From Nitrospira sp. (GTDB lineage: Bacteria > Nitrospirota > Nitrospiria > Nitrospirales > Nitrospiraceae): DNA of 20,955 nucleotides. The translations under genes and the position numbers were made by a program. Where the stretch lies: positions 1 through 20,955 of the forward strand of contig JANYAJ010000542.1 of NCBI GenBank assembly GCA_025361385.1. Reading direction: 5' to 3'. The notes beneath the pieces are model-generated. The model saw only the letters and a list, made by a program, of their open reading frames with translations. It ran no database searches and was not told where the DNA came from. Below are positions 640 through 17,139 of the stretch, piece after piece. Within the stretch, counting starts at the first letter, position 1. Each line of letters begins with the position of its first letter.

Positions 640-2091
640 CTATCTGGTTGTCTCCTGCGCATCGAAGGGGCTTGGTTGTTCGACGGTCACCTCTCCCTCC
701 TCACCACCCTCGATCCCCCTGGTCATGATTGCGGCGTTCATTCCGGTAATCGCTCCCATGTTCGCTGTCAAAGATGTGCCGATCTGGCAGGTGAACTCAC
801 GGGAGGCGCCTGGCGGCAATGGGCCGGCAAATTGAGCCAGATTACCGACGAACGGAAGATTATCTACCCGACTGGTGCCGTCGGACATGGTGGTGCGCAT
901 GCTGAAGCCTGTGATCTGCGGCGGCCCGAATCTCGTGCCGGCTTGATTGGAATCAAGCTGGCAAATGATTCCCTGTGCCTGTCCCCCGTCGCACATGGCT
1001 CCTTCTTCGACGCCGACCACACTGAGCGGCCCGAAGTAGGGTGTGTTCGGGTTGCTGCAGCCCATCACCAGCTTGCCGCTCGCTAACACGCCGCTCCAAC
1101 GGACACGGGTATTGCCGGACAAGGTGGCGTCGCTCTTCCCCATCGTTTGCAGAATCCAATTACGAAACACGAAGACATCCGTGAATACGGCCTCGCCCGA
1201 CGGGGTCTTGCAGTCACCAATTGAACCGAGGGATGCGACACCACGTACGATCGCGCGGCCGTTCTCGACGGTCACGAACCCCGATCCGCTGTCACCGGGG
1301 CACAGCGACGCGCCCGCGGCGCTGGCCTCAACAAACAGTTTGGAGGGAGAATCGAGCTGCGCAATTGGACCGCGGAAGATGGCGATTTGCCCAGGAGGCA
1401 CCGCCCCTCCGTCCTGCCTGACATACGAGGCCACGGTCCCTACGATGCCGAAGTTGCGCGGAAAGCGAGGCAACCCGACCGTCTGTAGCGTGAAGTTGAC
1501 AGAGAATGGCTGAGCCAGCTTGATCAACGCGATGTCGTTGGCATGGTCTTGATTGGGCGCATAGTTCGGGTGAATAAACACCCCCCGGTTGTTCGCAGGC
1601 CCCGCATTGGGGTCCGGCGGGCGGGTTTCGGTCGTCACCCTGCCGTAGGAATCGGTCCGGGTATAGGTCAGCTTGCTGAATCCGATATTCGGCGTGACGC
1701 AATGGGCGGCGGTCAATACCCACTGAGGATCGATCAGCACAGCGCCGCAACCGTTCATCCGCACGACCCAGGGATATTTGTAGTCCGGGTCATTGGTACC
1801 GCCTACGACGGGCAGTGGTCCCCCTGGTCCCGTGTTAGGAGTTGACGGTGTCGGTGCAGGGGTAGCGATTCCAAAAGTTCCAGGGGCCTTCATAGCCGGT
1901 GCCGTAGTCCCGGTCATGTCCCGAATAGTGCCCATACGCGGTACTGCACGTTCCTGAACGGGTTGATCGGAAGAAGCTGGTGGAGCGGGAGACTCGTCGG
2001 CCCAGACGAATGTCGACCCGCCGCTCCCGATCGCAAAGACCAGGGCCGAGGACCAGATCATTATCGTGCGATGCATGCGCTGTGTGCTCAT
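640..2091 (-). CDS. Secreted trypsin-like serine protease with C-terminal extension
   Basis: A 483-residue exported S1-family serine protease. The reading frame is open further upstream, but the ATG at 2091 is preceded by AGGAGG and opens a clear signal peptide (residues 1-31, ending VWA), and a longer form would overlap dsbA. The order is signal peptide, pro-region with VQERAV at 45-50, then the protease domain from VVGG (95-98). The catalytic triad is visible: His130 in LTAAHC, Asp186 in NDIAL, Ser268 in PGDSGSG. The usual GDSGG is GDSGS here, a small departure. Residues from about 320 to 455 form an extra cysteine-containing beta-type region I do not recognise, ending in TRGIEG (457-462) and an acidic tail. 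It is paralogous to the partial protease at 1-510. It lies 44 bp after dsbA, so its disulfides may be made by that neighbour. Likely substrates are Arg/Lys sites, which is inferred from the family. Confidence 0.93.
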   Translation of the reverse strand: MSTQRMHRTIMIWSSALVFAIGSGGSTFVWADESPAPPASSDQPVQERAVPRMGTIRDMTGTTAPAMKAPGTFGIATPAPTPSTPNTGPGGPLPVVGGTNDPDYKYPWVVRMNGCGAVLIDPQWVLTAAHCVTPNIGFSKLTYTRTDSYGRVTTETRPPDPNAGPANNRGVFIHPNYAPNQDHANDIALIKLAQPFSVNFTLQTVGLPRFPRNFGIVGTVASYVRQDGGAVPPGQIAIFRGPIAQLDSPSKLFVEASAAGASLCPGDSGSGFVTVENGRAIVRGVASLGSIGDCKTPSGEAVFTDVFVFRNWILQTMGKSDATLSGNTRVRWSGVLASGKLVMGCSNPNTPYFGPLSVVGVEEGAMCDGGQAQGIICQLDSNQAGTRFGPPQITGFSMRTTMSDGTSRVDNLPFVGNLAQFAGPLPPGASREFTCQIGTSLTANMGAITGMNAAIMTRGIEGGEEGEVTVEQPSPFDAQETTR

Positions 2092-3522: not shown

Positions 3523-3762
3523 TTACGGCATGAGCTGCGAATCTCGATCCTGGTTCACCTGGTAGGATCCTGCCGGCACGACGACGCTGTTTCCTTCACT
3601 TGTTGAGAAGTGGAATGAGGTCTCGATTCCAATGGTGGATAAATCGATCACTTCGCCGGGATTGGGATCAGTCAGTCCGACATTTGCCATGGCTGTTGCC
3701 GGAGCGTTGAAGGCCGTGATGCCAGTCAGCAGCCGGAAGATCGTCATGAGTGAACGAGACAT
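3523..3762 (-). CDS. Small exported protein, truncated version of the FTAPDG module
   Basis: A 79-residue protein. The frame is open further upstream, but the ATG at 3762 has GGAGG six bases before it and begins a signal peptide (MSRSLMTIF..., cleavage near residue 26). After a short acidic spacer, residues 38-79 match the first third of a module found in four neighbouring proteins: IDLSTIGIETSFHFSTSEGNS corresponds to their ...LDRxxxFTAPDGSD, and VVVPAGSYQVNQDRDSQL to V.LSPGTYxISRxDDSHL. The frame then stops at TAA, and no other frame in the next 130 bp continues the module. It is either a degraded duplicate of the gene upstream (3867-4520) or a genuine short form. The FTAPDG core is degenerate (FSTSEGN), which favours relaxed selection. 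Confidence 0.6.
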   Translation of the reverse strand: MSRSLMTIFRLLTGITAFNAPATAMANVGLTDPNPGEVIDLSTIGIETSFHFSTSEGNSVVVPAGSYQVNQDRDSQLMP

Positions 3763-3767
3763 GGATG

Positions 3768-3772
3768 CCTCC
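3768..3772 (-). promoter_or_regulatory. Ribosome binding site for the 79-residue gene
   Basis: GGAGG on the minus strand, five bases before the ATG at 3762. It supports that codon rather than the in-frame ATG at 3894, which would overlap the end of the preceding gene. Confidence 0.6.
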
Positions 3773-3866
3773 ATCGTAATCTGTTCCGCCATTTCGATAG
3801 GTAGGTCGGCAAGACCATTCATCTGGTTCATTCCATCGAGATCACATGCTCGAAATATGATGCAGG

Positions 3867-4520
3867 CTACCGAGCTTTCATACATTCCTTGCATGCTTGT
3901 CGCAAAGTTCGTCTTGCTTCCGCATCGAGCTGTATTCGGCCTTGTTCAAGCGTGACTCGTCCGGAGTGAGGCAGGGGCGCCTGAGAGCCTCCATCTGCGG
4001 GAGATGAGAGACTCTCCGGTTCTTTGAAATCCGAGTCGAGTTGAACGCGCCCCTGCTGCATCAATACACCGGCATACCGTTGCCTGGATGTGAAGGACGA
4101 AGTTGGACTGGATGCGTCGCCACGTGTTTGAATGTGGCTCACCAAACCAGCTGCATCCAGAGCCTGTCCGCCGGGAAGAAGCAACACGATATGTAGGTGA
4201 TCGTCGTGGCCTTCTTCCGTCACAGTCATGGCCATTTGCGAAACAATTGCTTCTCCGTGAGTCGTCTTCATCGCGGCAATGAGAAAATGTTGATCGTCAC
4301 GATTGACGAGGCGCAAGTGCGAATCATCAATCCGTGAAATAGGGTACGTCCCAGGGCTCAAGACCACGTCGCTACCGTCCGGAGCCATGAATTGTACGGC
4401 GCGATCGAGTGTGATGGTCGGTAGGGCAATCTGGTCGGCTGCGAACGTTGGAGACATGGCCGCGAGGCAGAATGCAGGGAGCAAGAGACAACTTCTGAGT
4501 CGCATGGAACGGTTCCTCAT
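3867..4520 (-). CDS. Exported FTAPDG-module protein with a phage-tail-like QQGRVQLD motif
   Basis: A 217-residue exported protein, function unknown. The signal peptide ends near residue 28 (TFA-AD). Two starts are possible: ATG 4520 with GGGAG, or ATG 4505 with GAGGAA; the former is reported. Residues 34-134 are the shared module (FMAPDGSDV, GTYPISR, EEGHDDHLHIVLLLPGGQALDAAG). The tail holds RYAGVLMQQGRVQLDSDFKE (148-167) and, 36 residues later, a second imperfect copy, SGRVTLEQGRIQLDAEAR (186-203). The first copy looks very like the N-terminal signature I recall from DUF6519 proteins of phage-tail-like/contractile-injection loci (VLMQQGRVQLDADWNE), which is unexpected in a short secreted protein. 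The C-terminus has a C-x2-C pair (210/213). It starts 13 bp after the frameshifted gene upstream, suggesting cotranscription. Confidence 0.85.
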   Translation of the reverse strand: MRNRSMRLRSCLLLPAFCLAAMSPTFAADQIALPTITLDRAVQFMAPDGSDVVLSPGTYPISRIDDSHLRLVNRDDQHFLIAAMKTTHGEAIVSQMAMTVTEEGHDDHLHIVLLLPGGQALDAAGLVSHIQTRGDASSPTSSFTSRQRYAGVLMQQGRVQLDSDFKEPESLSSPADGGSQAPLPHSGRVTLEQGRIQLDAEARRTLRQACKECMKAR

Positions 4521-4533
4521 CTCAATCTCCCGG

Positions 4534-5259
4534 TTACTTCTTCTTGAGTTCTACCGTGACACCCCCTTGGGCTGCGTTAAGAAAGTAATCGCGAAGCCAG
4601 GGACTGAAATTGGTTCGATCGTAGTATTGATTCGCGGTCATCGGGCCGACATGCGCATCGATCGTATCCGAGACAGCCTTGTTGGCATTAAACGTGAGTG
4701 TGGTGGTGAAGTTTCTAAATCTAAAAGGGTCTATGTCGGTACCGGGAGCGAGGTTCATCGTATCGATCCCCCACCACCAATGACCGTCATTCCACATACT
4801 GAGTTTTGCCCAAGGAATACCAAGGCTGGTACCCTCTACCACAGTATCCCCAGCTGGTTCCATGAATATGAACGTATGAAAGATACTCATCATGAAATTG
4901 ATCAGCCGTGACTGGTTGGCATAGTTCAATCGGACGAGGACGGCCTGATTGTTACCATCCTGCGACGTATGATCGACACGGAATTTCAAAATATAGATGA
5001 GCGCGGACTGCGGAGGAATGACCACGGAAAGGGGATCCATGGTCACTCCGGGAGGTAACTGAGCCGCGGTAAATGTCGCTGCGACAGGAGCGGCGGTTGC
5101 GTTATTGGTAACGACGCGTATGTCAGTCGCTTTATCGGCGATCGTCAGAATATCTCCCTGCTCGGCATAGACAATCACTCCGAAATTGATGCCTTCACAA
5201 CGGGCACGGATGGGGATCGAACGGTGCCACGAGGGCGCATTTGACCCGACCTCAAGCAT
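4534..5259 (-). CDS. C-terminal part of a frameshifted exported protein
   Basis: This frame of 241 residues continues the protein encoded at 5175-6488 after a one-base shift. It opens with ARCEGINFGV (residues 19-28), which matches ARFEGINFGV at residues 707-716 of the intact paralogue at 13204-15990. The residues before that also align (GSNAPSWHR against SPNAPVVTW). The rest is beta-rich with no cysteines beyond the first part and aromatic-rich stretches (NDGHWWWGID), resembling the C-terminal third of the paralogue in length and position but diverged in sequence. There is no signal peptide of its own and no ribosome site before the ATG at 5259. As a separate protein it would stay in the cytosol, so it is best read as the 3' part of a broken or misread gene of about 651 residues. 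Confidence 0.7.
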   Translation of the reverse strand: MLEVGSNAPSWHRSIPIRARCEGINFGVIVYAEQGDILTIADKATDIRVVTNNATAAPVAATFTAAQLPPGVTMDPLSVVIPPQSALIYILKFRVDHTSQDGNNQAVLVRLNYANQSRLINFMMSIFHTFIFMEPAGDTVVEGTSLGIPWAKLSMWNDGHWWWGIDTMNLAPGTDIDPFRFRNFTTTLTFNANKAVSDTIDAHVGPMTANQYYDRTNFSPWLRDYFLNAAQGGVTVELKKK

Positions 5260-6488
5260 TCGTAATTACCAACCGGTGGCCCGACGATGGAGTCAGGCTC
5301 AAATCCGAGAGTGAAATCGACGCGTTGTCCTGCTCTGACATTAATCGCCACAGAGCCCGCCATTGAAATATGCTTCGAAGGGTCTGACGCACTCACGCGT
5401 ATGTCATTGTAGTCGCCGCCTTTGACCGTCTGCGCGCCGACCCATTGACCATTGCTCACTTCGCCGGTATAGGTCCTCGCCTCGACAATTCGAAATCGTT
5501 GATGGGTCGCGTTCAGATCCAGCTCGGCGCGGATAAAGCCGTCGGCGGGTGCAGTGATTGTAATAGTGGTAGTCGGGTGTTGCCCGGACCAGGCGCTGCC
5601 GAGAGTGACCGGTGGCTGAATGACGTTTAGCGCTACGGCTGGAGATAAGTGGGCGGCTAGTGACAGAGCCGGAGAGCCGGCTATGCTCCCAAGATTACTC
5701 TGTGCCTTGTTGACATCTGGAATGCCGCGCATTGTCACACCGCTGGCGGCTTGCGGCTCGTTCAATCTAGCGACTTCGGAGATCCAGTTCGTTTTTAAGA
5801 GCTCATTCACCTCAGCCGGAGTACCAAGTGCGGCGAGGAATGAACGTGGTAATTTTCCAGTCTGGACATTGGCCAGTGCCGACGAGACGATCTCCGGATG
5901 ATTCATCTGAAGATAGCTCCATAAAATCCATTTTCCCTTATTCCCTGCCAACGGAGGCGGCGAGGTCGGCTGGGCCTGTGGCACGCGGACAATGGCTATC
6001 GGAGGCACTCCTTGCTGAGGGGAAGGCGTGGAGGGCTGCGGTGAAGGTTTGAACTGGTTTACCGCACTTTGAATCTGCACAGGTCGCAACGCTGACATCG
6101 CTGAACGGGATCGTATTCCACTGAATGAGCCGGTCGCATCCAGGCCCTGTCCCCCCGGCAGCAGCAATAAGAGATGCAGTTCTTCATCCTGTCCTTCTTC
6201 CATGACCGCCAACGTCAACGGGGCCGAGATGGCTTCATCATGCGGAACTTTGGTTGCTTGGATCTCGATTGCCGGCGTAGCGTCGTTGCTTAATCGAAGG
6301 CTGGATCCCCCCGCAGACTCCATGCGATAGCTGGCCGCGGACAACTGCACGTCGCTTCCGTCCGGTGCCGTGAAATGCGCAGGCCGGTCGAGTGAGACCA
6401 TTGGAGCAACATTGACTTCGGCAAGCGCGAGACTGTTACAGCACACCATGCTGACGATCAACTTCAGTAAAAAATAATGTCGCTTCAT
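5175..6488 (-). CDS. N-terminal part of a frameshifted FTAPDG-module exported protein
   Basis: This frame gives 437 residues from the ATG at 6488 (GGAAG five bases upstream); a TTG eight codons earlier is less likely. Signal peptide 1-23 (ending ALA). Module FTAPDGSDV...LLPGGQGLDATGSFSGIRSR at 30-128, then a Pro/Gln-rich linker (145-183). A helical segment follows, WSYLQMNHPEIVSSAL (190-205), with NWISEVARL (234-242) and TMRGIPD. A beta domain, LGSAWSGQ...ITAPADGFI...LNATHQRFRIV...AGQRVDFTLGFEP, covers 297-398. All but the linker align with the 928-residue protein at 13204-15990, which carries a tachylectin propeller where this one has the linker. After PPVGNYE (410) homology jumps to the overlapping frame starting at 5259. 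The last 27 residues here have no counterpart and are probably out of frame. Confidence 0.8.
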   Translation of the reverse strand: MKRHYFLLKLIVSMVCCNSLALAEVNVAPMVSLDRPAHFTAPDGSDVQLSAASYRMESAGGSSLRLSNDATPAIEIQATKVPHDEAISAPLTLAVMEEGQDEELHLLLLLPGGQGLDATGSFSGIRSRSAMSALRPVQIQSAVNQFKPSPQPSTPSPQQGVPPIAIVRVPQAQPTSPPPLAGNKGKWILWSYLQMNHPEIVSSALANVQTGKLPRSFLAALGTPAEVNELLKTNWISEVARLNEPQAASGVTMRGIPDVNKAQSNLGSIAGSPALSLAAHLSPAVALNVIQPPVTLGSAWSGQHPTTTITITAPADGFIRAELDLNATHQRFRIVEARTYTGEVSNGQWVGAQTVKGGDYNDIRVSASDPSKHISMAGSVAINVRAGQRVDFTLGFEPDSIVGPPVGNYECLRSGQMRPRGTVRSPSVPVVKASISE

Positions 6489-6576
6489 GCTCGCTTCCGG
6501 TTTCCCCTCCAATGGATCTGGGAGAGCTGTCTTTGAGTCGTCTGTTTGTCACAAATGAGCTGCTGAGTTCTCATCA

Positions 6577-8331
6577 TTACCTTCCCGGAAGCTGTGTGCC
6601 GAACGGGAGCTGGACCGATAGCACCGCTGACTTCGTATTGCTCGGGAGGCTCATCCTTCCGGCACCTACTGAACCGACCTGAGCGCTGGGTTGTGACTGA
6701 GTTGCAGCAGCTCCCATCTGCGAAGGCGGCAGGGTCATAATGGGCGACGCTGCCGCAGGCGGTGTTACCATTGCACTCTGGATTCGAGTTGACGATTTTG
6801 CCATTTGGAAGGGGGAAATCCCGCGCTCGGTCACCTCGCCTTGCCGGAGGAGCTCAGCCTCTCCACTACTCTGTTCCGTCGCTTTCGACTGGGTCGGACC
6901 GCTTTCTGGGTGCCCCTCGGTGTCCCGGCTGCTTTGATCAGGCTGCGAAGCTTCTTCAAGCCCGCGCGAGACAATCCCGCCCTGCACACTCGTGCTGAAC
7001 TTGGCTGAGATAGGGGGGAGCAGCGAAACGGTAATGGTGACGTCGCCCGCAGAGCGCGGAGCCGAATTGGGGTGCAATGTGAAAGTCCCGGTTGCGGATC
7101 CACTTGGGACAGAGATGGAAGATGGTACTGAGACAAGATTTGAATTGGATGTAAAGAGATAGATTACCCGGCCTTTCGGTGGCGCAGGCCCTTCCATGGT
7201 GACAGTCCCCATGGAAGGTGTCCCTGCTCGAACACTTTGTTGCGAAAGCGTCAGCGAGACGAGCAGATTCTGGCGAATCTCGAACGACAACTTCTTCTTC
7301 GTCGCCACAAATCCGGAGGGCTGGCCGATTCCGGAGGTTGGACTCACATCCAATTCTAACTCATAGACCGCTGCAGGTAAGCTGGTGAATGTGACAGATG
7401 AAAATGAGGATGAGTCGAACCATGACGAGGTGCAAGGCTGCGCGGCAAAGACGCAGGCGTTTTGCACCGTCGTGGGCTGGTTGCCCAAGCCAATAGTGCC
7501 ACCGCCTGGAAGCGTCGCAGATGAGTAGGAGGTATGTGTCAAGTCGTTGAGGGTCCAGCGATATTGAAGGTTGGGGGTGAGTTCCGGCTTCACGCCGGCG
7601 GCGCGCCAGCTGAGTTGAAGAGGGGTGCCTTCCGGAACTGTGATATTTGAGCCGGGGTTGAATTGTATGCGGTATCCCGCGGTATCGGCAGGAATCGACC
7701 CGCAGACGATATGCATCCGATCCACGAAAAGGCCGGTTCGTCCTTCGAGCGCTATTCCAACGGGATTCCATACCCGGGGCTCACGCTGGACATTTGTCCC
7801 GACGTGTGGTGAATCACAGTAGTCTTGAAGCACAGACACTTTGAGAGGATCGGGGTCCCCGTAATAATCGATGAGTCTGGTGCCCTCAATCGTCGCCCCG
7901 ACTCGACCGAGGCTCACTCCAATGTCGATACATCTAATGGCGATGGAACCGACAACGGGTGTGCCATCGAAGGAATTCACCGTTCCTTCGAGACCCCAAA
8001 GGGCCTGACCCACCGGACATTTCTTATTGAAAGGCTGGCCGCCAGTTCCTCCATAATGTGCTGTCTCATATGCCCCGCCGACCCAGACACCGGAGACAGG
8101 GTCGATCTTCACGCAGAGTCCCCCGATTTGATCGATGACAACCCCTGATCGCCCTGTGATTCCGATGAGCAGAGCCGACTCTCCACAGTCGAGGTGAAAC
8201 GGAGCGCCTCCTGGGCCGCCGATGCCGTCAAAAGGCGCGAGCTTCGCCGACGCGGGCGCGGTCAGCGAACCTAATCCCGCCAGGACCGGCACGAAGATCA
8301 TCATCCGAATGATGCCGGGTAGCTGTCTCAT
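6577..8331 (-). CDS. Exported cysteine-rich jacalin-like/VMO-I-like protein with Ig-like domain
   Basis: A 584-residue exported protein, paralogous along its length to 11385-13145. The start ATG has GGAGGTG upstream. Signal peptide 1-29 (ending ASA). Residues 31-210 contain three related segments, each with a glycine-rich turn or G-[IL]-x-G-R-[ST]-G-x-x-[VI]-D pattern and paired cysteines (GGPGGAPF...C49...C73; GGTGGQPF...C105...C134; C172...C210). This suggests a beta-prism sugar-binding fold of the jacalin or vitelline-outer-membrane type (tentative). Residues 220-350 are a beta domain with PEGTPLQLSWRA, and 355-450 an Ig-like domain (GTVTMEGPAPPKGRVIYL). A Ser/Pro/Gln-rich tail holds VSRGLE (454-459), VTERGI (500-505) and LPSNTKSAVLSVQ (562-574). 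The eight mature cysteines match those of the paralogue. It follows the large putative enzyme by 29 bp, so the two are probably co-translated. Confidence 0.88.
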   Translation of the reverse strand: MRQLPGIIRMMIFVPVLAGLGSLTAPASAKLAPFDGIGGPGGAPFHLDCGESALLIGITGRSGVVIDQIGGLCVKIDPVSGVWVGGAYETAHYGGTGGQPFNKKCPVGQALWGLEGTVNSFDGTPVVGSIAIRCIDIGVSLGRVGATIEGTRLIDYYGDPDPLKVSVLQDYCDSPHVGTNVQREPRVWNPVGIALEGRTGLFVDRMHIVCGSIPADTAGYRIQFNPGSNITVPEGTPLQLSWRAAGVKPELTPNLQYRWTLNDLTHTSYSSATLPGGGTIGLGNQPTTVQNACVFAAQPCTSSWFDSSSFSSVTFTSLPAAVYELELDVSPTSGIGQPSGFVATKKKLSFEIRQNLLVSLTLSQQSVRAGTPSMGTVTMEGPAPPKGRVIYLFTSNSNLVSVPSSISVPSGSATGTFTLHPNSAPRSAGDVTITVSLLPPISAKFSTSVQGGIVSRGLEEASQPDQSSRDTEGHPESGPTQSKATEQSSGEAELLRQGEVTERGISPFQMAKSSTRIQSAMVTPPAAASPIMTLPPSQMGAAATQSQPSAQVGSVGAGRMSLPSNTKSAVLSVQLPFGTQLPGR

Positions 8332-8360
8332 GGTTTTTCACCTCCAGGATCTCGAATTTT

Positions 8361-11240
8361 CTATTTGGGCACGATGCCGAGATACAGGCTGAGCCAGTAT
8401 GGCAACAAGTAGTCAACGCCGGGTCCTTCCCGGCCCGGGTCACTCCCGCAAATCATGATGTTGCCCGGCGTCGGCGGGGTCTGTTGGCAAAAAGGACGGC
8501 TGCTGTCGTGCAAATGCACTCCCACGCCGAAGGGACTTCGCTGCCAGAGAAAATCCATCCCATCGCCGATGCGTCCATGGACGGGAAGGGGAATCGTTGC
8601 CTGATAACCCTGACCTACACCTGTGTCAAGGCTGGCGGCTGTATACACGGCGATCTTCGCGGGCCAGAGACCTGCCTGATAGTTCGGATAGGCGACTCTG
8701 TTGAACGGCAATGTGCTTGGTGCGGGGATTTGCTGCCGCCGCGTCAGCCATTCAGTCAGCAGCAGCGGTATCTCTTCCCGCTGCGGGGCTGGGGGAGTCA
8801 TGCTGGCCAACGCCGATGCGGGTATCAGCCGTTGTCCTGAGGCTTCGATCAATATTCTGATGAGATCGAAGTAGGCGTTCTTATGGTGGGCGGTGGCGCG
8901 CCAGAGGAGATTGTACGCTTTCACATAGTTCCCGCGAGTAACCGGTTGATCCTCCAGGAACAATAGGGGACTGAAGAATGCCTGCGCTAAGTTGAACTTG
9001 AAATAGCTCGTAACGGGATCCAGGATCGTAATCCACGTGGGCACCCATATGACTTCGGAGGCCGGCGCGTAACGGTCATAGACCGGGCCGTACTTTTGAG
9101 GATTGATGGCCTTCCCAATCCGCAAGAACGTCAACTGCATGTCGATGTTTCCAAAGTAGGAGGTGCGGATCCTGTCATAGGGCGCGAGCAGGACGTTCCA
9201 TTGTCCAGGCCCAAGCAGGTGATCGAGTACATCCTCCATGAGACGTTGCGCGGTGTGCTTCACGTCAGGATCCTGAACCAGGAAGTAGGCGTACGTCAGC
9301 CCCATCATGGCGCCGACATATGCATCACGACTGATCGCATGGTCTGCGCCGCACCCCCATCCATACCAAACGTTTCCCACCGGCCGTACTAGCGGCAAGG
9401 CAAGCTGAGGTTGCAGCAAGCCTGGTTGGAGAGGCCGTGATGGAGCCGCAGTCTGCTTTTTCGCTAAGACCGAATTCAACGCCGCGAGGGCTCCACTATA
9501 TGTTTTAAAGTGTTGTGGCCCCTGTTCCGTGACCAGGTCCCAGCCGCCATCTGGTTTCTCGTAGTAACAGGGTTGCTGGTTCAAGCTTCCCTTCTGTCGT
9601 CCCTCGTCTGAGAAATCAATCCCGCTGCTGGCCGCTGACCAGACTGTCCGTGACAGGACTCCAGGGTACTGGCGTACCGGCATCGCCTGTCCCTGGATGA
9701 CGGCAGCGTCGCTGGTGACATCGAAAAGCAGTGAGAATCCGTGCAGGATCTGTTTCACGCGGTCGAGTGCGGCCGGGTCGCCTGTCGCGGCAGACCGAAA
9801 TGATTCGGCGGCGAGATAATGTCCAGTCCAGATCGCCGAATCGGCTTTCAGCGCATAGGACAGCGGTGGGGGAGGGGGCGCCTGACTGACGCGCGGCAGG
9901 AGGCTGTTTATGGGTTTTAGTTGATTGTGATCCAGGGACAACACAGTCCCTTCTAAAAGGTGCGACTGAATCGCCGTCTCGATTTCACCCGCGTTCTTCG
10001 CGAGATCCGACGGTGAAAGCGGGGTCGGCATCGGAAGAAGACCGGCCGGCGAGAGGGGGCCTGATGGCGTTGCACCAGCCGCTCCCTCGCCCCATACTTG
10101 AGGCGCCTGGAGCTGCATGAGCTGAAATGCCTGATTCAGTGACTCCGATGCGGGAATGACCCAGGGGACAGTCAACGTGAAGGGAATCGTCTGTCTCCCG
10201 ACTCGGTTCAACGTGATCGAGAGGTGACCCGCAAGCGCAACGGACGCCTGTTGAAGGGAGAGATCCCCGTGGATCAGGTTATGGTCCGAGACAGGGTAGT
10301 CCACCTCATAATAGATGTCATAGGTCGTCGGGAAGATCGTGATGACGAGATCGCCGGTCAACCGAGCATCGAACTCGCCCTTGAGTCCCAGGCTTAAATT
10401 GGTGATGCGTCCCTTAATCTCGATACGTCCGGGCAAGGGACTTACTTGTAGTTGAACGGGAATTGACACCGGGATGAACCCATCTCCTTCGAGCTGCAAT
10501 TGCGGCTGGACGACCACGCGTTGCAACGTCGGCCTGTCGAGTTGTGCATTGTTTAAGTCCACCGACGCAGTGAGGCGAAAATTCGTGATGCGAAGTCCAA
10601 ACGGGATGGTCGGCGACCAGTCCAGATAGGTCACCGCATCCTTCCCGGTCAGTGGATTCTTTTCCTTGACAGTCGCGTGAGCTTGTACCGTCCCTCCGAT
10701 CGAGAAGTTCCAATAGCGATCAAGGGGGGCTTCGAACGTGAACCCCTTTAATAGGGGTGACACGGCTCTGAAGCCCGGTGAGGCCGCCAAGTCTGCATGG
10801 CCGGTGGCCTGTGTGACCTGAAGCCCGAACGCCCAATGGAGATCCCCGCCTCCGTGGCTATCGGCCAAGGGTTTTGCGGTCAGACCCTGAATGTTCTGAG
10901 CGGCATCACCCATATATTGGCGCGCCAGTGCACACCAAGGAACGTTCATCAGTTCGTTGGCTGCGTCTACTCCTGGACCCAGCCCCTTGACAGGTAACGC
11001 GCATGGTGGAGGGGAAGAAACGGCGCCTGGAATGGCTGCGAGCGGGACGTCTGAGACTCCACTCGGCCGTCCTGGAACGGCCCTTTCCTGAACCTGACCG
11101 GAGGTCTCTGCGGATTGAGCCTGTTCCTGGGCCTCTTGCGCTCGCGTGTCTTGTGCGAACGTTCCCAGGCAAGCCATCACTCCACATATTATGATGAGGG
11201 CGATTGGTCGCTGGCTGAAGGTGCGGCGTTGTAATGTCAT
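8361..11240 (-). CDS. Large exported protein with putative (alpha/alpha)6-barrel enzyme domain
   Basis: A 959-residue exported protein. The start ATG has GAGGAGG upstream. The signal peptide ends near residue 34 (TRA); a Gln/Glu-rich pro-region carries VQERAV at 50-55. Residues 130-360 are beta-rich, with a run of amphipathic strands (PVSIPVQLQVSPLPGRIEI, LVITIFPTTYDIYYEVDYPV) that could be a lipid- or glycan-binding sandwich. A Pro-rich linker (380-460) precedes a helical domain from 460. It begins ADSAIWTGHYLAAESF...ATGDPAAL and later has CYYEKPDGGWDL, HAISRDAYVGAMMGLTYAYF and NVLLAPYDRIRTSYFGN. This spacing of Trp/Tyr/His-containing helices is typical of (alpha/alpha)6 toroid glycoside hydrolases and polysaccharide lyases. 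I cannot name the family or its catalytic residues. The gene is flanked by the two jacalin-like paralogues, suggesting it acts on or with a glycan. Confidence is high that the gene is real and moderate on enzyme activity. Confidence 0.9.
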   Translation of the reverse strand: MTLQRRTFSQRPIALIIICGVMACLGTFAQDTRAQEAQEQAQSAETSGQVQERAVPGRPSGVSDVPLAAIPGAVSSPPPCALPVKGLGPGVDAANELMNVPWCALARQYMGDAAQNIQGLTAKPLADSHGGGDLHWAFGLQVTQATGHADLAASPGFRAVSPLLKGFTFEAPLDRYWNFSIGGTVQAHATVKEKNPLTGKDAVTYLDWSPTIPFGLRITNFRLTASVDLNNAQLDRPTLQRVVVQPQLQLEGDGFIPVSIPVQLQVSPLPGRIEIKGRITNLSLGLKGEFDARLTGDLVITIFPTTYDIYYEVDYPVSDHNLIHGDLSLQQASVALAGHLSITLNRVGRQTIPFTLTVPWVIPASESLNQAFQLMQLQAPQVWGEGAAGATPSGPLSPAGLLPMPTPLSPSDLAKNAGEIETAIQSHLLEGTVLSLDHNQLKPINSLLPRVSQAPPPPPLSYALKADSAIWTGHYLAAESFRSAATGDPAALDRVKQILHGFSLLFDVTSDAAVIQGQAMPVRQYPGVLSRTVWSAASSGIDFSDEGRQKGSLNQQPCYYEKPDGGWDLVTEQGPQHFKTYSGALAALNSVLAKKQTAAPSRPLQPGLLQPQLALPLVRPVGNVWYGWGCGADHAISRDAYVGAMMGLTYAYFLVQDPDVKHTAQRLMEDVLDHLLGPGQWNVLLAPYDRIRTSYFGNIDMQLTFLRIGKAINPQKYGPVYDRYAPASEVIWVPTWITILDPVTSYFKFNLAQAFFSPLLFLEDQPVTRGNYVKAYNLLWRATAHHKNAYFDLIRILIEASGQRLIPASALASMTPPAPQREEIPLLLTEWLTRRQQIPAPSTLPFNRVAYPNYQAGLWPAKIAVYTAASLDTGVGQGYQATIPLPVHGRIGDGMDFLWQRSPFGVGVHLHDSSRPFCQQTPPTPGNIMICGSDPGREGPGVDYLLPYWLSLYLGIVPK

Positions 11241-11384
11241 GGACGCCTCCTCGACCGTCTTTTACTCAAGTGTCATCACGTGGGTCGCAACATGGCCTTG
11301 CAGGTTCATTTCAATCGAGACCACATGCAAGATGCTCTGCTTCCTTAACCTGGTTCTCCATTCTGAGCATAGGATAAGATTGGT

Positions 11385-13145
11385 TCATGGCGTCTGGAAA
11401 CGCTTGAGGTTCGGCTGAATGAGATTATTCTGTTGAATCTGGACATCCGGCTGAATCGTAAGAACGGCTTGTTTCGTGGCGCTGGGCAGGGTCAGTGCCT
11501 GGGAGGCGATCACTGCTGATTTGAGTTCGGACACGGCACCACTGCTGGGCGCTTTTTGAACGGGTACAGCCACCAGTGCTTGTGATGCTGGTGACAGGGT
11601 TGTGGCAGGGCGGAGGGTCAGGTTTCTGACGCCTCGTTCCTGCACCTCCTGATTCACATCGTCGGGTGTTTCCAATAGAGCCGGCACCTCAGTGGATGCC
11701 ACTGGCTCTCCGGTCGGTTCGGCCGGTTTCTCTTCTGTCAACGCAGGCTCAGACGGCTCGGTCCCTTCAAGGCCTCGGGACAGCACGCCAAGCGAATTGG
11801 CCTGTTTCATATCAGTGGCGATGACTTGTTGAGAGAAGGGAGCAAAGAGCGAGGCCGTGATGGTAGCCTGACCCGCTGATATGGGAGATCCACTCCGAAG
11901 TGCGATGGTTCCTCTCGATGTGCCTCCGGGTATGACAATGGAGGGAGGGACTGGGACGAGCGACGCATTCGAGCTTGATAGATAAATGGTTTTCCCACGT
12001 GGTGGCGTCGGCCCTTCCAAGACGACGGTTGCGGTAGATGCTTGACCAGGGCGAACGGTACCTGGATTTACCGTCACCTCGACCAACTGATTCGGAACGA
12101 TCTCAAACTTGGTGCTGGCTACTGACTGTGCGGGAGACGGCACTGTCGGGCTGACGGTCAGACGCAATTCATATAGAGCCGGCGGGAGGCTATGAAAGGT
12201 CACTTGGGAAGAAGAGGAGGAGTAGACCCAGCCGCTTTCACAGGGCTGTGCCGCGTAGGTGCAGGGATTTTGGATAGAGGTTGGTTGGGGGCCGAGCATC
12301 CCGGGCTTGGTATGGGTCAAGTCTTGCAACTCCCAAGTGTATCCCAAGTTCGGCGTGAGCTCAGGCTTTACACCAGTAGCTCGCCATTGGATGTTGAGCG
12401 GCGTGCCTTCCGGAATAGCGGTTCTGGCACTGGTTCGGAAGTCGACGCGATAGCCTTGGGTATTCTGCAGTAGTTCCCCGCATAGGAGATGCACATGATC
12501 GAGGTACAGACCTGCCCGGCCTTCCAGGGCGACGCCGACACGAGTCCATTCAACCTGTGAATGGCCGGGTTTGAGGACTGGAGGATAACAGAGGTCTTGC
12601 GACGCATCGACTGTGAGCGGATCGAAATCTCCTTGGGGACCGACCTGACGGAAACCTTTAATGACCGGAGGTTGGAACTCCGTTCTGATTTTCAATTCAG
12701 TGCAGTTGATCCCCAGCGACGCAACAACGTTGGTTCCGCTGAAGTATTTGATGGTGCCCTCAAGGCCGATGAGCGCCTGGCCGACCGGACAGGCCTTTTG
12801 AAACCGTGAGCCGCCGGTGCCGCCGGCCGATGCCGTCTCGTAGACACCTCCGACCCACGTTCCGGAGACCGGATCGATTTTCACGCAGAGACCGGCGATG
12901 CGATCGATCACCAGACCCGATTGCCCCGTGACCCCCACCAGTACCGCCGATTCACCACAATCAATGCGGTACGGCGCGCCGCCGGCTCCTCCGATTCCAT
13001 CGAAGGGAGCGAGCCTTGCCCATGCAGGGGAGACCAACGCCAGCATGCTCACAACGGCAAAGACCATTCCTAGAGTGGACCTAGTGAGAACAGGCTTCGT
13101 CTCCACCCGTTCGAAACAAATCTGATTCCAGCCTGGGATGTTCAT
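11385..13145 (-). CDS. Exported cysteine-rich jacalin-like/VMO-I-like protein (paralogue of 6577-8331)
   Basis: A 586-residue exported protein. The start ATG has GAAGGAAG upstream. The signal peptide has a long N-region (hydrophobic core 27-40, cleavage after AWA, residue 43). The mature protein opens RLAPFDGIGGAGGAPY, nearly identical to its paralogue. It has the same three cysteine-paired repeats (C63/C87, C119/C148, C186/C222), the same PEGTPL..WRATGVKPELTPNL beta domain with CTYAAQPC, and the same Ig-like domain (350-435). The tail carries LSRGLEG (455-461), an acidic Pro/Glu stretch, VQERGV (501-506), SELKSAVIAS and LPSATKQAVLTIQ (553-565), ending in a Gln/Asn-rich segment. Carbohydrate binding is inferred from the jacalin-like pattern. 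Its position between the tachylectin protein and the putative glycan enzyme fits that. Vitelline-outer-membrane-like or another beta-prism family are alternatives. Confidence 0.88.
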   Translation of the reverse strand: MNIPGWNQICFERVETKPVLTRSTLGMVFAVVSMLALVSPAWARLAPFDGIGGAGGAPYRIDCGESAVLVGVTGQSGLVIDRIAGLCVKIDPVSGTWVGGVYETASAGGTGGSRFQKACPVGQALIGLEGTIKYFSGTNVVASLGINCTELKIRTEFQPPVIKGFRQVGPQGDFDPLTVDASQDLCYPPVLKPGHSQVEWTRVGVALEGRAGLYLDHVHLLCGELLQNTQGYRVDFRTSARTAIPEGTPLNIQWRATGVKPELTPNLGYTWELQDLTHTKPGMLGPQPTSIQNPCTYAAQPCESGWVYSSSSSQVTFHSLPPALYELRLTVSPTVPSPAQSVASTKFEIVPNQLVEVTVNPGTVRPGQASTATVVLEGPTPPRGKTIYLSSSNASLVPVPPSIVIPGGTSRGTIALRSGSPISAGQATITASLFAPFSQQVIATDMKQANSLGVLSRGLEGTEPSEPALTEEKPAEPTGEPVASTEVPALLETPDDVNQEVQERGVRNLTLRPATTLSPASQALVAVPVQKAPSSGAVSELKSAVIASQALTLPSATKQAVLTIQPDVQIQQNNLIQPNLKRFQTP

Positions 13146-13203
13146 GATGCTTCCTTCTCCTCGTCGTTCACACTCAGTTCAAGGGGAGGCTCTTTGAATT
13201 CAA

Positions 13204-15990
13204 TTAAAATCCCGGAGTATGACATCTCAATCCCGCTTGGGCGCGCTCTGAGAAGAGTCTCGGGTAATTGTCTTGCACGAACGACGAATGTGTCGTGTAC
13301 CCTCCGAATTTGGTATGCACGGTGTTTTGACCGTCGCTCAAGACGCCTCTGCCGATATTCACTCCAAGCAGCAAAAATCGTAAATCCAGCTGCATTTCAG
13401 AGACGAGATTGGTGTTCCGCAAACTATAGGCAAAGCGCGTTGTCCCGTCTGGTTGGGCGTAGATATCCCAGCTGTACCGACAGGACCCAACGTCAGCCGA
13501 ATCTTTGTACCAATGGAGCAGTTTCGGGTAAAGCGTCACGCCAAATTCTGCATGTCTGACGACATCCGCATACGCATAATTCAATCGTCCCATGTATTCG
13601 ACCCCCTGCGTTGGACAGGAATCGATCTGAATTGGAATGGGAACCTGCTTGCGCTCTCCTGGAGCGAGCGACACGGTGAAGCCTTGCATATGCAAGGGAT
13701 GCGAGAGTTCGGCCGTGACCGAGATGCTTCGGGCCTGTTGCTCGGCATTGTGAAAGGTGACGCTGGCAGGAACAGGAATGAGCCGCCCACAGGGAGTCCC
13801 ATCATAAAATACCGTGATGGCGCTATCACTCATCGCACCGAGCACACCGAAGTTGATGCCTTCGAAACGCGCGAGAATCGACGCCATACGCCTCCATGTG
13901 ACCACTGGAGCGTTTGGTGAAAGAATATTGATCTCTGTACTCGTCGCTCCACTCAATTCCAGGGTAGCTTCATTGTTGCCCACCGGCGTCATTCCGAGGC
14001 CGACAGGCTCGAATGCGACCGTGAATGCGATCAGCTGGCCTTTTTTTGCCAGGATGGCGACGAACCCTGCTTTGCTGATTTGAGACGGCGGATTGGCAGG
14101 ATCCACGACCACATCCTGATACTGACCTCCCGGAATGGTCAAAGACACGGAGGGGATTCCATTCACCACTTCTCCTGTGTAAGCCTTGGCATTCACGATG
14201 CGGAAATGCCGGTTCGTGGCATTTAAGTTGAATCGGCCTTCAATATACCCATCTGCCGGGGCAGTGATGAACACGTAGGCGAAGGCGGATTGACCTGCCC
14301 ACACGCTTCCGAGGTTCCGCGGGGGGAGGTTAAGGTCAATGAGTTGGTACGCCGATGGGAGCGTCGTTTTGCCAGAAGGGATGGCCGTGACCTGGTCTGA
14401 CGCAGAGGGAAGGGTTTTCAGTATCGGCGAAAAAGGAGACTGTTGAGGAACAGCCGTGACCTGGTCCGTTAAGGACAGGCCACCAGGCAGGCCCCGTGGC
14501 GTGATTCCGGCTTGCGGCCCACTGGCCTTACCCATCGTGGCAAGCCGACTCACTTCCGCGGTCCAATCAGTTTTGAGCATGGCGTTCAGCTCCACGTCAG
14601 ACGCTAACCCAACGATAGAGGTACGCGGTTGTGTATTGGTTTGAACATCTGCCAGCGCCTGCGCCACGATCTCGGGATGGTGCATGGCGAGATAATTCCA
14701 TGTGACCCAGTTCCCGGAGCCGGAAGTCACAACGGTTTCTGGCGGTGCTATTGTGGCGGCGGCCGCTGCCGTTGGCAGGGGGGGGAGGAGGGCGACGACA
14801 GTGGGAAACCCCTGCCAGCCGGTGCCGATATCTTTTGCCCCTTCCCAGGCAAAGGTCCCGTCGCGATAGCCGAGGTGCTTGTACCACTTTAAAATGCCGT
14901 CGTTGGCGATCGCATAGATGAGGCCATTGCCTGCTCCGAAAACTTGCTTAAAGTTCTGCCACCCGGTCCCGACATCTTTCGGACCTTCCCAGGCCACCGT
15001 GCCATCCCGAAAACCCGTATGCTTATACCATTTCAATTTTCCATCACCGGCAATGGCGTAGATCACGCCATCCCCCATCCCGAACACGGTTTTAAAATTC
15101 TGCCATCCGCTGCCAACAGTCTTGGGGCCGTCCCAGGTCGCAGCGCCGTCGCGATATCCTGTGTGGTGATACCACTTCAGGGTCCCGTCCTGGGCGATGG
15201 CATATAGAATGCCTTCCGATCCTGAAAAGACCTGCTTGAAGTTCTGCCACCCGGTGCCGACATTCTTGGCCCCCTGCCAAGCCGGAGTTCCATTCATGGC
15301 GTCGTTATGGCTGTACCATTTCAAGGTGCCATCGCGAGCGATGCCGTACAGCACCGTTCCACCCCCTGGTACGACCTGGATGAAGTCTTGCCAGCCAGAT
15401 CCGACCTCGGTCGGGCCGGTCCAGGCACCGGGCGAGTTCAACCCTGCGCCGGTTGGCGCGCCGTTGTGGCGGTACCACTTCAAGGCGCCGGTCGGCGCAA
15501 TACCATAGAGCACGCTAGGCTGTGAGTCCGTGCCGCTGAATAGCCCCGTGGATTGCACCAGACTGCTGTGCAGTTGAGCTGCCGTCAATGTCCGGCTCGT
15601 GGCCCGTGACCTGATCCCACTCAACGATCCCGTTGCATCGAGACCTTGTCCGTCAGGACGTAGCAACACAAGATGGACTTCGTCTGTTTGGCCCTCTTCG
15701 GCGATCAATAACGCCAAAGGCGCCGCGACGGTTTCCTCATGCGTCATGGCGGCAGCTGTAATCTCAAAAGCTGGTTGTAGGGGATCGGCGATTAACCGGA
15801 GCTGTGCCTCTGCGGATTGTTCTACGCGATAGGTGCCTGCCGCTACCAGCACATCGGTGCCATCCGGCGCGGTGAAATGGCTGGGCCGCTCGAACAGTAG
15901 GACCGGGGATGCAGGCTCCGCCCATCCCATGGTTGTGGAGAGGAGACTGACGACGAGGCCTATGAAGAGTGAAGCGGTCGGTCTGATCAT
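13204..15990 (-). CDS. Exported multidomain protein with five-bladed tachylectin-like beta-propeller
   Basis: A 928-residue exported protein. The ATG at 15990 has a modest AAAGG upstream. Signal peptide 1-24 (ending WAE). The FTAPDGTDV module is at 30-130 (ending SGIRSR). Residues 159-400 hold five repeats with core [IL]-Y-[AG]-I-x-x-[DT]-G-x-L-K-W-Y at 161, 214, 262, 310 and 358, each closing V-G-[ST]-G-W-Q-x-F. This is the number and period of tachylectin-2, an animal lectin for N-acetyl sugars. An Ala/Pro linker leads to WNYLAMHHPEIVAQAL (431-446), TPRGLPGG, and a beta domain (559-664) with FITAPADGYI and FRIVNAKAYTGEV. The C-terminal region begins ARFEGINFGV (707) and contains a few cysteines. 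The protein at 4534-6488 shares all but the propeller. Role inferred: surface or matrix lectin binding GlcNAc/GalNAc-type glycans. Confidence 0.92.
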   Translation of the reverse strand: MIRPTASLFIGLVVSLLSTTMGWAEPASPVLLFERPSHFTAPDGTDVLVAAGTYRVEQSAEAQLRLIADPLQPAFEITAAAMTHEETVAAPLALLIAEEGQTDEVHLVLLRPDGQGLDATGSLSGIRSRATSRTLTAAQLHSSLVQSTGLFSGTDSQPSVLYGIAPTGALKWYRHNGAPTGAGLNSPGAWTGPTEVGSGWQDFIQVVPGGGTVLYGIARDGTLKWYSHNDAMNGTPAWQGAKNVGTGWQNFKQVFSGSEGILYAIAQDGTLKWYHHTGYRDGAATWDGPKTVGSGWQNFKTVFGMGDGVIYAIAGDGKLKWYKHTGFRDGTVAWEGPKDVGTGWQNFKQVFGAGNGLIYAIANDGILKWYKHLGYRDGTFAWEGAKDIGTGWQGFPTVVALLPPLPTAAAAATIAPPETVVTSGSGNWVTWNYLAMHHPEIVAQALADVQTNTQPRTSIVGLASDVELNAMLKTDWTAEVSRLATMGKASGPQAGITPRGLPGGLSLTDQVTAVPQQSPFSPILKTLPSASDQVTAIPSGKTTLPSAYQLIDLNLPPRNLGSVWAGQSAFAYVFITAPADGYIEGRFNLNATNRHFRIVNAKAYTGEVVNGIPSVSLTIPGGQYQDVVVDPANPPSQISKAGFVAILAKKGQLIAFTVAFEPVGLGMTPVGNNEATLELSGATSTEINILSPNAPVVTWRRMASILARFEGINFGVLGAMSDSAITVFYDGTPCGRLIPVPASVTFHNAEQQARSISVTAELSHPLHMQGFTVSLAPGERKQVPIPIQIDSCPTQGVEYMGRLNYAYADVVRHAEFGVTLYPKLLHWYKDSADVGSCRYSWDIYAQPDGTTRFAYSLRNTNLVSEMQLDLRFLLLGVNIGRGVLSDGQNTVHTKFGGYTTHSSFVQDNYPRLFSERAQAGLRCHTPGF
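14790..15516 (-). repeat. Five tandem tachylectin-type blade repeats (about 144 bp each)
   Basis: In-frame tandem repeats inside the 928-residue gene. The first unit is 53 codons long and the next four are spaced by exactly 48 codons. Each unit contains a KWY triplet with a following His and a GWQ(N/D/G)F close. They are protein-domain repeats rather than DNA satellites: codons vary between units while residues are kept. Confidence 0.9.
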
Positions 15991-16055
15991 GATCGGCCTT
16001 TCTATGACTCCGAGAGCGACGGTCTAGAGGATATGGTGCTCATGGTGTGGACATC

Positions 16056-16086
16056 TTCCGCCGCACGTGCGTTCAGGCCTGCGGAA
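16056..16086. repeat. Imperfect dyad with a 10-bp perfect palindrome between lipoprotein and lectin genes
   Basis: In the 129-bp gap between the PAN lipoprotein and the 928-residue gene, six-base arms (TTCCGC and GCGGAA) enclose the perfect palindrome CGCACGTGCG at 16062-16071. It lies 66-96 bp before the lectin start codon. It could be an operator or an mRNA hairpin. There is no T-tract, so a terminator is unlikely. Weak evidence. Confidence 0.3.
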
Positions 16087-16119
16087 TGTGTCGGATTGAT
16101 ATGCCAGGGTTACCTCGCA

Positions 16120-17139
16120 CTATCTGCCCATGTTTCCGATGAGTTCCTGTGCTGCACTCTTTCGCTTGGCAGAAATGCAACAGGGATTTCCACTCTGAAT
16201 CGGCACCGCTTGCTTGAGATAGCATTGTCCTGCCGAAGCGCCGGCAGGCGGTTTCACAAAGGTAAAGGCTTGGCATTTATTGTCGGCTGAGCAGGCAGCG
16301 CGACAGGCTTCCGGGCTGGCCGTGGCCCGCTGCCCGTAGTCGCTGCCAGGACGATTCGTGTTGTACTCAAGATGAAAATGCTCATTCTGCGCGGCGAAAA
16401 TATTCTGAGCGAGGCTTACAGCCAATTGTCGTTGTGACACAATCGATTGCAGGTTAATCATCTCGATTTCGGAATTCTGCGAAGAGGGTGAGGCGACGTT
16501 GTCCGCTGTTCCAGCTCCCTGACGATACGTAGTGGCCAAAGTCGACTGACCCGGGAGCGGCTGTTGACCCGTTACTCCATTGCCGAACTGCACCTGACCG
16601 GTTGCCTGATCGAGTTGGTAGGCCAATTGATAGTGGCGTCGCACGCTCACGGTGTCACGCGTTTGAACGCCGCTTAGGGAACCGCGCGCGTCTAATGCCG
16701 TGCCATCGGGCATGAGGAGGACTAGGTCACGCGCATCATCGTTCAGGGCAATGATGAGAGGAAAGGGCGTGGATACATCGAGGTCGTGCGTGCCTGTGTC
16801 TGCTGCGACGATCAAGGGTGATCCGCCATTGCTCGGTACTAGCTGAAGCTGACGGTCCGGTATCCGTTCGACCAGATATTCATTCGGTGCAACGAGCATG
16901 GGCGTCCCGTCAGGGGCTGTAAAGTGGATGCTCGTGTTGAGTTCAATCGTCTCGTTGGAGATATCGGTTGACTGGATGGCGGCTGTGTCGATGGGCCCGT
17001 GAGATGGACGTTGGGGCTCCTGAGTCGCACAGCCAACTATTGCTAAGGTGATCGCAATCCCTAAACCGACGGCCTTTCGTCTGGGCATGTGCATGCTCAC
17101 AAAGTAGCTCAAACGGGCGATTGACATCGGCCTCCCCAT
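16120..17139 (-). CDS. Lipoprotein with FTAPDG module and C-terminal PAN/Apple domain
   Basis: A 339-residue lipoprotein. A hydrophobic segment ends in a lipobox (LAIVGC, Cys37), so the protein is probably anchored in the outer membrane. The exact start is uncertain: ATG 17139 (GAGG close upstream) and ATG 17127 (GGGGAGG, only three bases away) are both possible. Residues 64-161 are the shared module (IHFTAPDGTPMLV, LVLLMPDGTALDARGSLSGVQTR). A Gln/Ser-rich linker with a helical stretch (225-250) follows. The C-terminus (253-325) is a PAN_4/Apple-type domain: NRPGSDYGQ, ASPEACRAACSADNKCQAFTF, QCYLKQAVP, NPCCIS. It has six cysteines in the expected order, which suggests disulfide formation, possibly by the DsbA-like neighbour. 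PAN domains bind proteins or carbohydrates. The module may connect it with the other module-bearing proteins. The gap before it holds a strong inverted repeat. Confidence 0.88.
   Translation of the reverse strand: MGRPMSIARLSYFVSMHMPRRKAVGLGIAITLAIVGCATQEPQRPSHGPIDTAAIQSTDISNETIELNTSIHFTAPDGTPMLVAPNEYLVERIPDRQLQLVPSNGGSPLIVAADTGTHDLDVSTPFPLIIALNDDARDLVLLMPDGTALDARGSLSGVQTRDTVSVRRHYQLAYQLDQATGQVQFGNGVTGQQPLPGQSTLATTYRQGAGTADNVASPSSQNSEIEMINLQSIVSQRQLAVSLAQNIFAAQNEHFHLEYNTNRPGSDYGQRATASPEACRAACSADNKCQAFTFVKPPAGASAGQCYLKQAVPIQSGNPCCISAKRKSAAQELIGNMGR

Follow-up and report, generated by a model that had tools for sequence, protein, structure and literature searches.

Caspase-like enzymes linked to bacterial gasdermins or to Craspase are paired with neighbouring substrates; these systems are cytoplasmic and have one or few substrates, and we know of few natural substrates of exported bacterial caspase homologues. 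PorU, which serves the type IX secretion system (T9SS) of Bacteroidota, is a clan-CD enzyme. In that system, according to the abstract of PMC4804311, a conserved terminal beta-sandwich of many exported proteins, the C-terminal domain (CTD), is removed by PorU as a dedicated protease that cuts independently of sequence. Passages of PMC5756287 state that characterised caspase-family (C14) enzymes other than animal caspases require Arg or Lys at P1. At P4, AtMCA-IIf favours Ile or Val, at P3 a basic residue and at P2 Pro, Tyr or Phe, the optimum on which the design of VRPR was based (parts of PMC10896300); MALT1 is assayed with LVSR, inhibited by Z-VRPR-FMK and prefers Leu at P4 (parts of PMC6207715). 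Here we present an analysis of a 20,955-nucleotide stretch of Nitrospira sp. (contig JANYAJ010000542.1 of assembly GCA_025361385.1), referred to as the window, in which exported proteins share an N-terminal module of about 100 residues that ends in Arg, in the company of a caspase-family protein. We propose, giving the idea about even chances of being right, that the module serves as an N-terminal cap or anchor and is removed at this exit by an exported Arg-specific caspase.

By analogy, the T9SS CTD with PorU appears to be the system most like the proposed mechanism, as it also involves a conserved domain common to many exported proteins. The module, however, is N-terminal, its exit bears a sequence motif, unlike the sequence-independent PorU cut, and the candidate protease belongs to C14. 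With metacaspases, MALT1 and orthocaspases, the locus shares the GHG and D-S-C motifs, an Asp that precedes the Cys by two residues, and a VRPR- or LVSR-like site. It differs from them in the WD40-NPCBM-SH3-C14 arrangement, the hydrophobic N-terminus and the motif-marked exported candidate substrates, and no such substrate set is described in the relevant passages of PMC3501461 or PMC5756287. The gasdermin and Craspase systems differ in another respect, since the candidate substrates found here are many and carry signal peptides.

The first-pass annotation of this DNA had placed the module in four exported proteins, with a partial copy in a fifth, at 16657-16950, 15601-15903, 6105-6401, 4119-4421 and 3526-3651. 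Translation confirms all five stretches on the minus strand, and the modules and their exits are delimited as follows:

16657..16962, minus strand: module of the PAN lipoprotein (protein 16120-17139; E 2e-16)
16651..16668, minus strand: exit motif V-Q-T-R-D of the PAN lipoprotein
15604..15915, minus strand: module of the tachylectin protein (protein 13204-15990, 928 residues; search query, aligned, model with pLDDT 93.7)
15598..15615, minus strand: exit motif I-R-S-R-A of the tachylectin protein
6105..6413, minus strand: module of the frameshifted protein (halves 5175-6512 and 4534-5259; E 1e-31)
6099..6116, minus strand: exit motif I-R-S-R-S of the frameshifted protein
4122..4430, minus strand: module of the 217-residue protein (protein 3867-4520; E 5e-19)
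4116..4133, minus strand: exit motif I-Q-T-R-G of the 217-residue protein
3526..3651, minus strand: remnant of a fifth module (first third), in a 123-residue open reading frame (ORF) at 3523-3894

With the tachylectin-protein copy as the single query, the other seven full copies in the source genome (G000; 562 contigs, 82% complete) were recovered at E 3e-16 to 1e-31, three of them in the window and four on three other contigs, and matches of this strength exclude a chance likeness. The own-genome search gives eight full copies and the remnant, of which four full copies and the remnant lie in the window; C48 carries two copies, and C511 and C176 have one apiece. The eight align over 103 columns, with 39-55% identity to the first copy and 13 invariant columns. 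Four window proteins therefore have the module in common, as had been reported; the fifth keeps the first third that was claimed for it, but as a remnant (E 0.01) with two internal stops, the frame being closed after that third.

The earlier statement that the module belongs to no named family also held, as no Pfam match (scans with 8 and 51 members) or NCBIfam match (8 members) reached its cut-off. The best E-values were 0.01 to 0.03, with one member per family and scores below the cut-off where shown, and no match was found among the sequences of the PDB. Structure prediction of one copy, that of the tachylectin protein, gave a single confident all-beta fold (pLDDT 93.7), for which fold comparison returned a PH domain, WDR91, lipocalins and similar structures, all at noise level. 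The module is a real, previously unlisted domain family of about 100 residues, and its confident model is without a clear solved counterpart. For the whole PAN lipoprotein, prediction gave a poor model (pLDDT 46), which was unusable.

To describe the distribution of the family, 235 genomes of the order (153 of good quality; 37 genera) were surveyed with a profile built from 51 module copies. The module is present in 38 of these genomes, with up to 16 matches per genome, including 24 of the 153 good-quality genomes and 10 of the 37 genera. Within a phylum-wide sample of 395 genomes, it occurs in 20, all from two families of the same order, and was not found outside that order. Similarly, a contig scan with one narrow pattern (370 matches) yielded five relatives, all titled Nitrospirae or Nitrospira; the database homologues that carry an organism name are likewise all Nitrospirae or Nitrospira, although most carry none. 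The regions fetched around these matches contain 125 module proteins (remnant included), up to six per fetched stretch, whereas all 20 control stretches, drawn from three genomes, lack the module. The predicted recurrence at protein N-termini in similar Nitrospirota clusters is borne out: the module starts by residue 130 in 115 of the 125 proteins, usually behind the signal peptide or lipobox, and this sets it apart from the T9SS CTD, which sits at the C-terminus of its cargo. The placement is not universal, as the module starts after residue 250 in nine proteins; seven proteins contain two copies. Gene calls and signal-peptide calls come from our own simple scripts, which assign ordinary signal peptides to 71 of the 125 proteins, lipoprotein signals to 34 and neither to 20. 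In the PAN lipoprotein, the lipobox-type Cys is invariant across a 13-row alignment.

Fusion partners were identified by a Pfam scan of 82 of the 83 redundancy-reduced module proteins, the remnant being left out. They include PAN, tachylectin, DUF928, Tcp10_C, DM9, Peptidase_S74, DUF11, GDSL lipase, CARDB, beta-helix, Lipase_3, FG-GAP, M19 peptidase, Exo_endo_phos, collagen and TSP3 domains, most of them seen in one to three proteins each, and database homologues contribute WSC and EGF_2. The family is fused to many unrelated domains, but the earlier claim of unrelated C-terminal domains is partly wrong, since two of the four window proteins share their C-terminal part. In genome G153, a single intact relative is matched both by residues 426-717 of the tachylectin protein (47%) and by the frameshifted protein (50%), which makes the two proteins paralogues beyond the module. 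The 445- and 241-residue ORFs at 4534-6512 (minus strand) are the two halves of this frameshifted protein, whose intact relative lies at L042:8091-10109 in G153; the break may be a true frameshift or an assembly error. Residues 1-146 of the tachylectin protein (signal peptide and module) are closest to one G153 gene (L040, 64%), and residues 418-928 are closest to a neighbouring G153 gene (73%, in a match without the tachylectin stretch). Because the closest relatives of the two parts differ, the signal peptide and module seem to shuffle as an independent piece. Two exported Tcp10_C-repeat proteins (L053:8353-11028 and L077:4960-6912) carry the module in the C-terminal half, where it is flanked by motif copies (GVIPRAVE, GVVPRGVE).

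The Arg-containing exits proved to be the most informative part of the first-pass annotation. The module closes with Arg, placed behind the model's last strand, in 122 of 129 distinct cases, and all 61 database homologues (the two from the window included) keep this Arg. Among the 129 modules, the positions around it are also biased, with Ile or Val at P4 in 101, Arg at P3 in 68, Ser, Pro or Thr at P2 in 108 and Gly or Ala at P1' in 97. The resulting exit, [I/V]-R-[S/P]-R, appears closest to the AtMCA-IIf kind of site as far as that enzyme is described in the parts of PMC10896300 cited above.

On sequence grounds, the exit Arg is part of a broader linear motif, [V/I]-x-[S/T/P/E]-R-[G/A]-[V/L/I], which is also found in exported cluster proteins without the module, for instance as GEVQERAV past the signal peptide and as VRPRGVEE close to the C-terminus. 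Outside the module, this pattern, which was written after inspection of the cluster proteins and then counted in those same loci, occurs at 100 sites, spread over 75 of the 261 exported proteins counted (module-fetched loci, after redundancy reduction), and 66 of these 75 proteins lack the module. The expectation for the same set is 17.8 +/- 4.2 sites from shuffles, and a version with Lys in place of Arg has 14. Control regions show no excess (5 sites in 5 of 96 proteins; shuffles 5.4). Over all loci, a count that includes 20 stretches fetched for the caspase or the module, there are 111 sites in 86 of 317 exported proteins (p 1e-6 versus controls), compared with 15 for the Lys version. When P1 is left free, Arg is found in 62 places and the runner-up residue in 17. 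The flanks of the motif are linker-like, with fewer hydrophobic and more linker residues than the proteins overall, and across the seven members of one family mean identity is 0.68 over the nine columns of the motif, compared with 0.31 for the 20 columns before and 0.26 for the 20 after. A DNA-level search of whole genomes for VQER[AG]V gave 133 matches, spread over 85 of the 235 genomes. Of these matches, 50 fall in the 38 module genomes, where the reversed control pattern gives 14, and 83 in the other 197, where it gives 99. This string exceeds chance in the module genomes only, and modestly. In the window, the motif occurs at these further positions:

361..378, minus strand: V-Q-E-R-A-V, pro-region of the S1-fold protease 1-510, which runs off the window
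712..729, minus strand: I-M-T-R-G-I near the C-terminus of the S1-fold protease 640-2289
1942..1959, minus strand: V-Q-E-R-A-V, pro-region of the S1-fold protease 640-2289
5721..5738, minus strand: motif-like V-T-M-R-G-I inside the frameshifted protein, with Met at P2 and outside the strict pattern
6817..6834, minus strand: V-T-E-R-G-I, protein 6577-8331
6958..6975, minus strand: I-V-S-R-G-L, protein 6577-8331
11076..11093, minus strand: V-Q-E-R-A-V, N-terminal in protein 8361-11240
11628..11645, minus strand: V-Q-E-R-G-V, protein 11385-13145
11769..11786, minus strand: V-L-S-R-G-L, protein 11385-13145
14488..14505, minus strand: internal I-T-P-R-G-L, tachylectin protein

The candidate enzyme is encoded at the end of the window:

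18986..20953, minus strand: caspase-family (Peptidase_C14) protein, N-terminus cut by the contig end (Pfam C14 E 2e-17, with SH3_3 and NPCBM_assoc)

This protein has the caspase domain with the His/Cys dyad that defines Peptidase_C14, in the motifs YYAGHG and DSCYSG, with an Asp two residues before the Cys, and it aligns with solved metacaspases (metacaspase-1 and -4) around both catalytic residues. The Asp of DSC and the Asp of "DKDA" align with Asp in metacaspase-1. Because parts of PMC4357240 give Asp95 and Asp211 as the acidic S1 residues of TbMCA2, we read the aligned pair as the probable S1 pocket at those positions, by way of metacaspase-1, and we count the window caspase among proteins with the acidic S1 of Arg/Lys-specific C14 enzymes. 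A full-length relative (L057) combines a hydrophobic N-terminus, WD40 repeats and C14, and relatives of the window caspase begin with a hydrophobic stretch that resembles a signal peptide by eye, which suggests that the enzyme is exported. All 22 window-type caspase ORFs found by the Cys motif also have the GHG motif; two other GHG proteins (L112, L146) lack the Cys motif by the pattern used. In WD40-type caspases (L152:7907-11095 near residue 588, and relatives), a motif-like F-I-K-E-R-G string lies outside the C14 domain and may be structural.

The caspase tracks the module across genomes. Close orthologues (E below 1e-150) occur in 25 of the 235 genomes, and 24 of these have the module (p 6e-22), the remaining one (G011) being the only carrier among 197 module-less genomes. 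Module and caspase share a contig in 18 of the 24, always within 12.3 kb (G481, stretch L146, among them). Under a looser cut that accepts any C14 match, 29 of 38 module genomes are positive versus 27 of 197 others, and a motif test finds a caspase in 24 of 59 module-fetched loci versus 1 of 20 controls (p 0.002). G011, chosen for its caspase and its VQER matches, has six proteins of VQER, VEER or IQER type 10-21 kb from the caspase, and no module was detected there, so that motif and caspase can go together where the module is absent. Close behind the catalytic Cys, at most 50 residues on and in the p20/p10 linker, a strict motif match occurs in 10 of 11 caspases of a second type, 740-870 residues long (one being a 389-residue ORF). 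In animal caspases, this linker is the autocatalytic site (passages of PMC5756287), and Nitrospirae are rich in caspase-homologue genes according to the survey portions of PMC3501461.

Together, the exit motif and the cluster-tracking caspase favour a removable cap or anchor. The module would form a folded N-terminal unit of about 100 residues behind the signal peptide or lipid-anchored Cys, and its tail would carry a site for a protease, [I/V]-x-[S/T/P]-R, with Gly or Ala as the usual next residue. An exported Arg-specific C14 protease of the same clusters would cleave after this Arg. The C-terminal part (lectin, PAN, CARDB, lipase and others) would then be parted from the module, and in lipoproteins also from the lipid anchor, and would thereby be released or activated. 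Lipoproteins in which a site separates the anchored Cys from the functional domain would be shed, and exported proteins without the module, with the same site past a short linker or close to the C-terminus, would be further substrates. Cleavage, the identity of the cutting enzyme and the resulting release or activation are all steps that we infer. The shared targeting, docking or pro-domain role suggested earlier agrees with this as far as a shared, recurring and variously fused domain is concerned, but that suggestion missed the exit motif and the caspase. More broadly, and as a tentative idea that we rate somewhat less likely than not, these loci may represent a previously undescribed extracytoplasmic maturation system in which exported metacaspase-like enzymes sort or shed many surface proteins per genome, marked by the Arg motif and partly by a removable N-terminal beta-domain whose fold is unrecognised. 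No paper on such a system turned up in the open-access literature, searches aimed at it included.

Several observations count against cleavage by the caspase. The pattern was shaped on the loci in which it was counted; in 18 later stretches (two of the 20 belong to G011, already known for its VQER matches, and were left out of this repeat count) there are 7 sites in 42 exported proteins, with 2.4 +/- 1.6 in shuffles, in the same direction but weaker. The whole pattern fits just 80 of the 129 module exits and 30 of the 61 database exits, and Leu is rare at P4 (4 of 111), unlike the preference of MALT1. A profile built around every RG dipeptide of all the cluster ORFs gave a weak signal, probably through dilution by false ORFs, and the PAN lipoprotein model is too poor to reveal an exposed exit. 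On the side of the enzyme, no close caspase orthologue was found in 14 of the 38 module genomes, among them the good-quality genomes G159 and G160, whose fetched loci contain other caspases; in six of the 24 genomes with both (G153, G015, G484, G471, G474, G483), the caspase stretch yielded no module; and few sites turn up beyond the caspase, on its far side (0 to 2 genes in each of L140 and L151-L155). In its own p20/p10 linker, the window-type caspase shows no clear site, its single match lying in another domain, and the catalytic dyad is present in just 57% of the Nitrospirae metacaspases surveyed in PMC3501461.

The module might instead be a permanent docking or surface-anchoring unit, bound for example to peptidoglycan, lipopolysaccharide or an outer-membrane scaffold, with the Arg motifs binding a common partner. 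Its fusion to many binding domains and its compact, well-folded model would suit such a role, and the proteins with two modules or with a module deep inside suit an adhesive building block. However, the strong preference for Arg over Lys, the linker-like flanks, the site in the p20/p10 linker of one caspase type and the many carriers without the module fit proteolysis better than binding, and we consider permanent docking unlikely. Lineage-specific domain shuffling with no common mechanism would make module and motif the baggage of duplicating gene families. Although the restriction of the module to one order and the strong paralogy within clusters agree with this, its fusion to many unrelated domains, the conservation of the motif inside a changing linker and the different closest relatives of the two ends of one protein do not, and we see very little chance that it explains the loci.

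If the sites are cut, the cutting enzyme could also be one of the S1 (chymotrypsin-fold) proteases of the clusters, or another Arg protease, and not the caspase. Two S1-fold proteases lie inside the window, and the string [L/V]-x-P-R-G resembles the thrombin site. Arg-specific trypsins carry Asp at position 189, but this position, counted back from GDSG, is Ser in six and Ala in one of the seven readable cases among the eight S1-fold proteases found, which disfavours these proteins as trypsin-like Arg-specific processing enzymes. Moreover, all eight carry the motif in an otherwise varying pro-region (seven VQERAV, one VTERGI) and for this reason look like substrates. Cutting by an S1 or other non-caspase protease therefore seems quite improbable to us.

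The extracytoplasmic maturation system suggested above, if real, would represent a caspase-based counterpart of sortase or T9SS processing in relatives of nitrite oxidisers. The analysis yields a list of candidate substrates, candidate enzymes and a rule for the sequence that is cut, with which the question can be tested directly. Further gains are a domain family whose confident model lacks a clear solved relative, and a way into many surface proteins of Nitrospira-type bacteria that are still unannotated.

Other proteins of the window offer additional observations. The proteins at 6577-8331 and 11385-13145 are paralogous exported proteins with two motif copies each in the C-terminal part; they have long relatives in G153 (L042) and G158 (L048), and no clear Pfam domain was found in them. 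Just past the module exit, residues 171-221 of the PAN lipoprotein resemble TIGR02243 (putative baseplate assembly protein), a likeness far under the threshold (E 7.5e-7, 28 bits versus a cut-off of 156). Past residue 147, the 217-residue protein (3867-4520) contains two similar short segments, GVLMQQGRVQLDSD and RVTLEQGRIQLDAE, which we take to be reminiscent of tail-related proteins.

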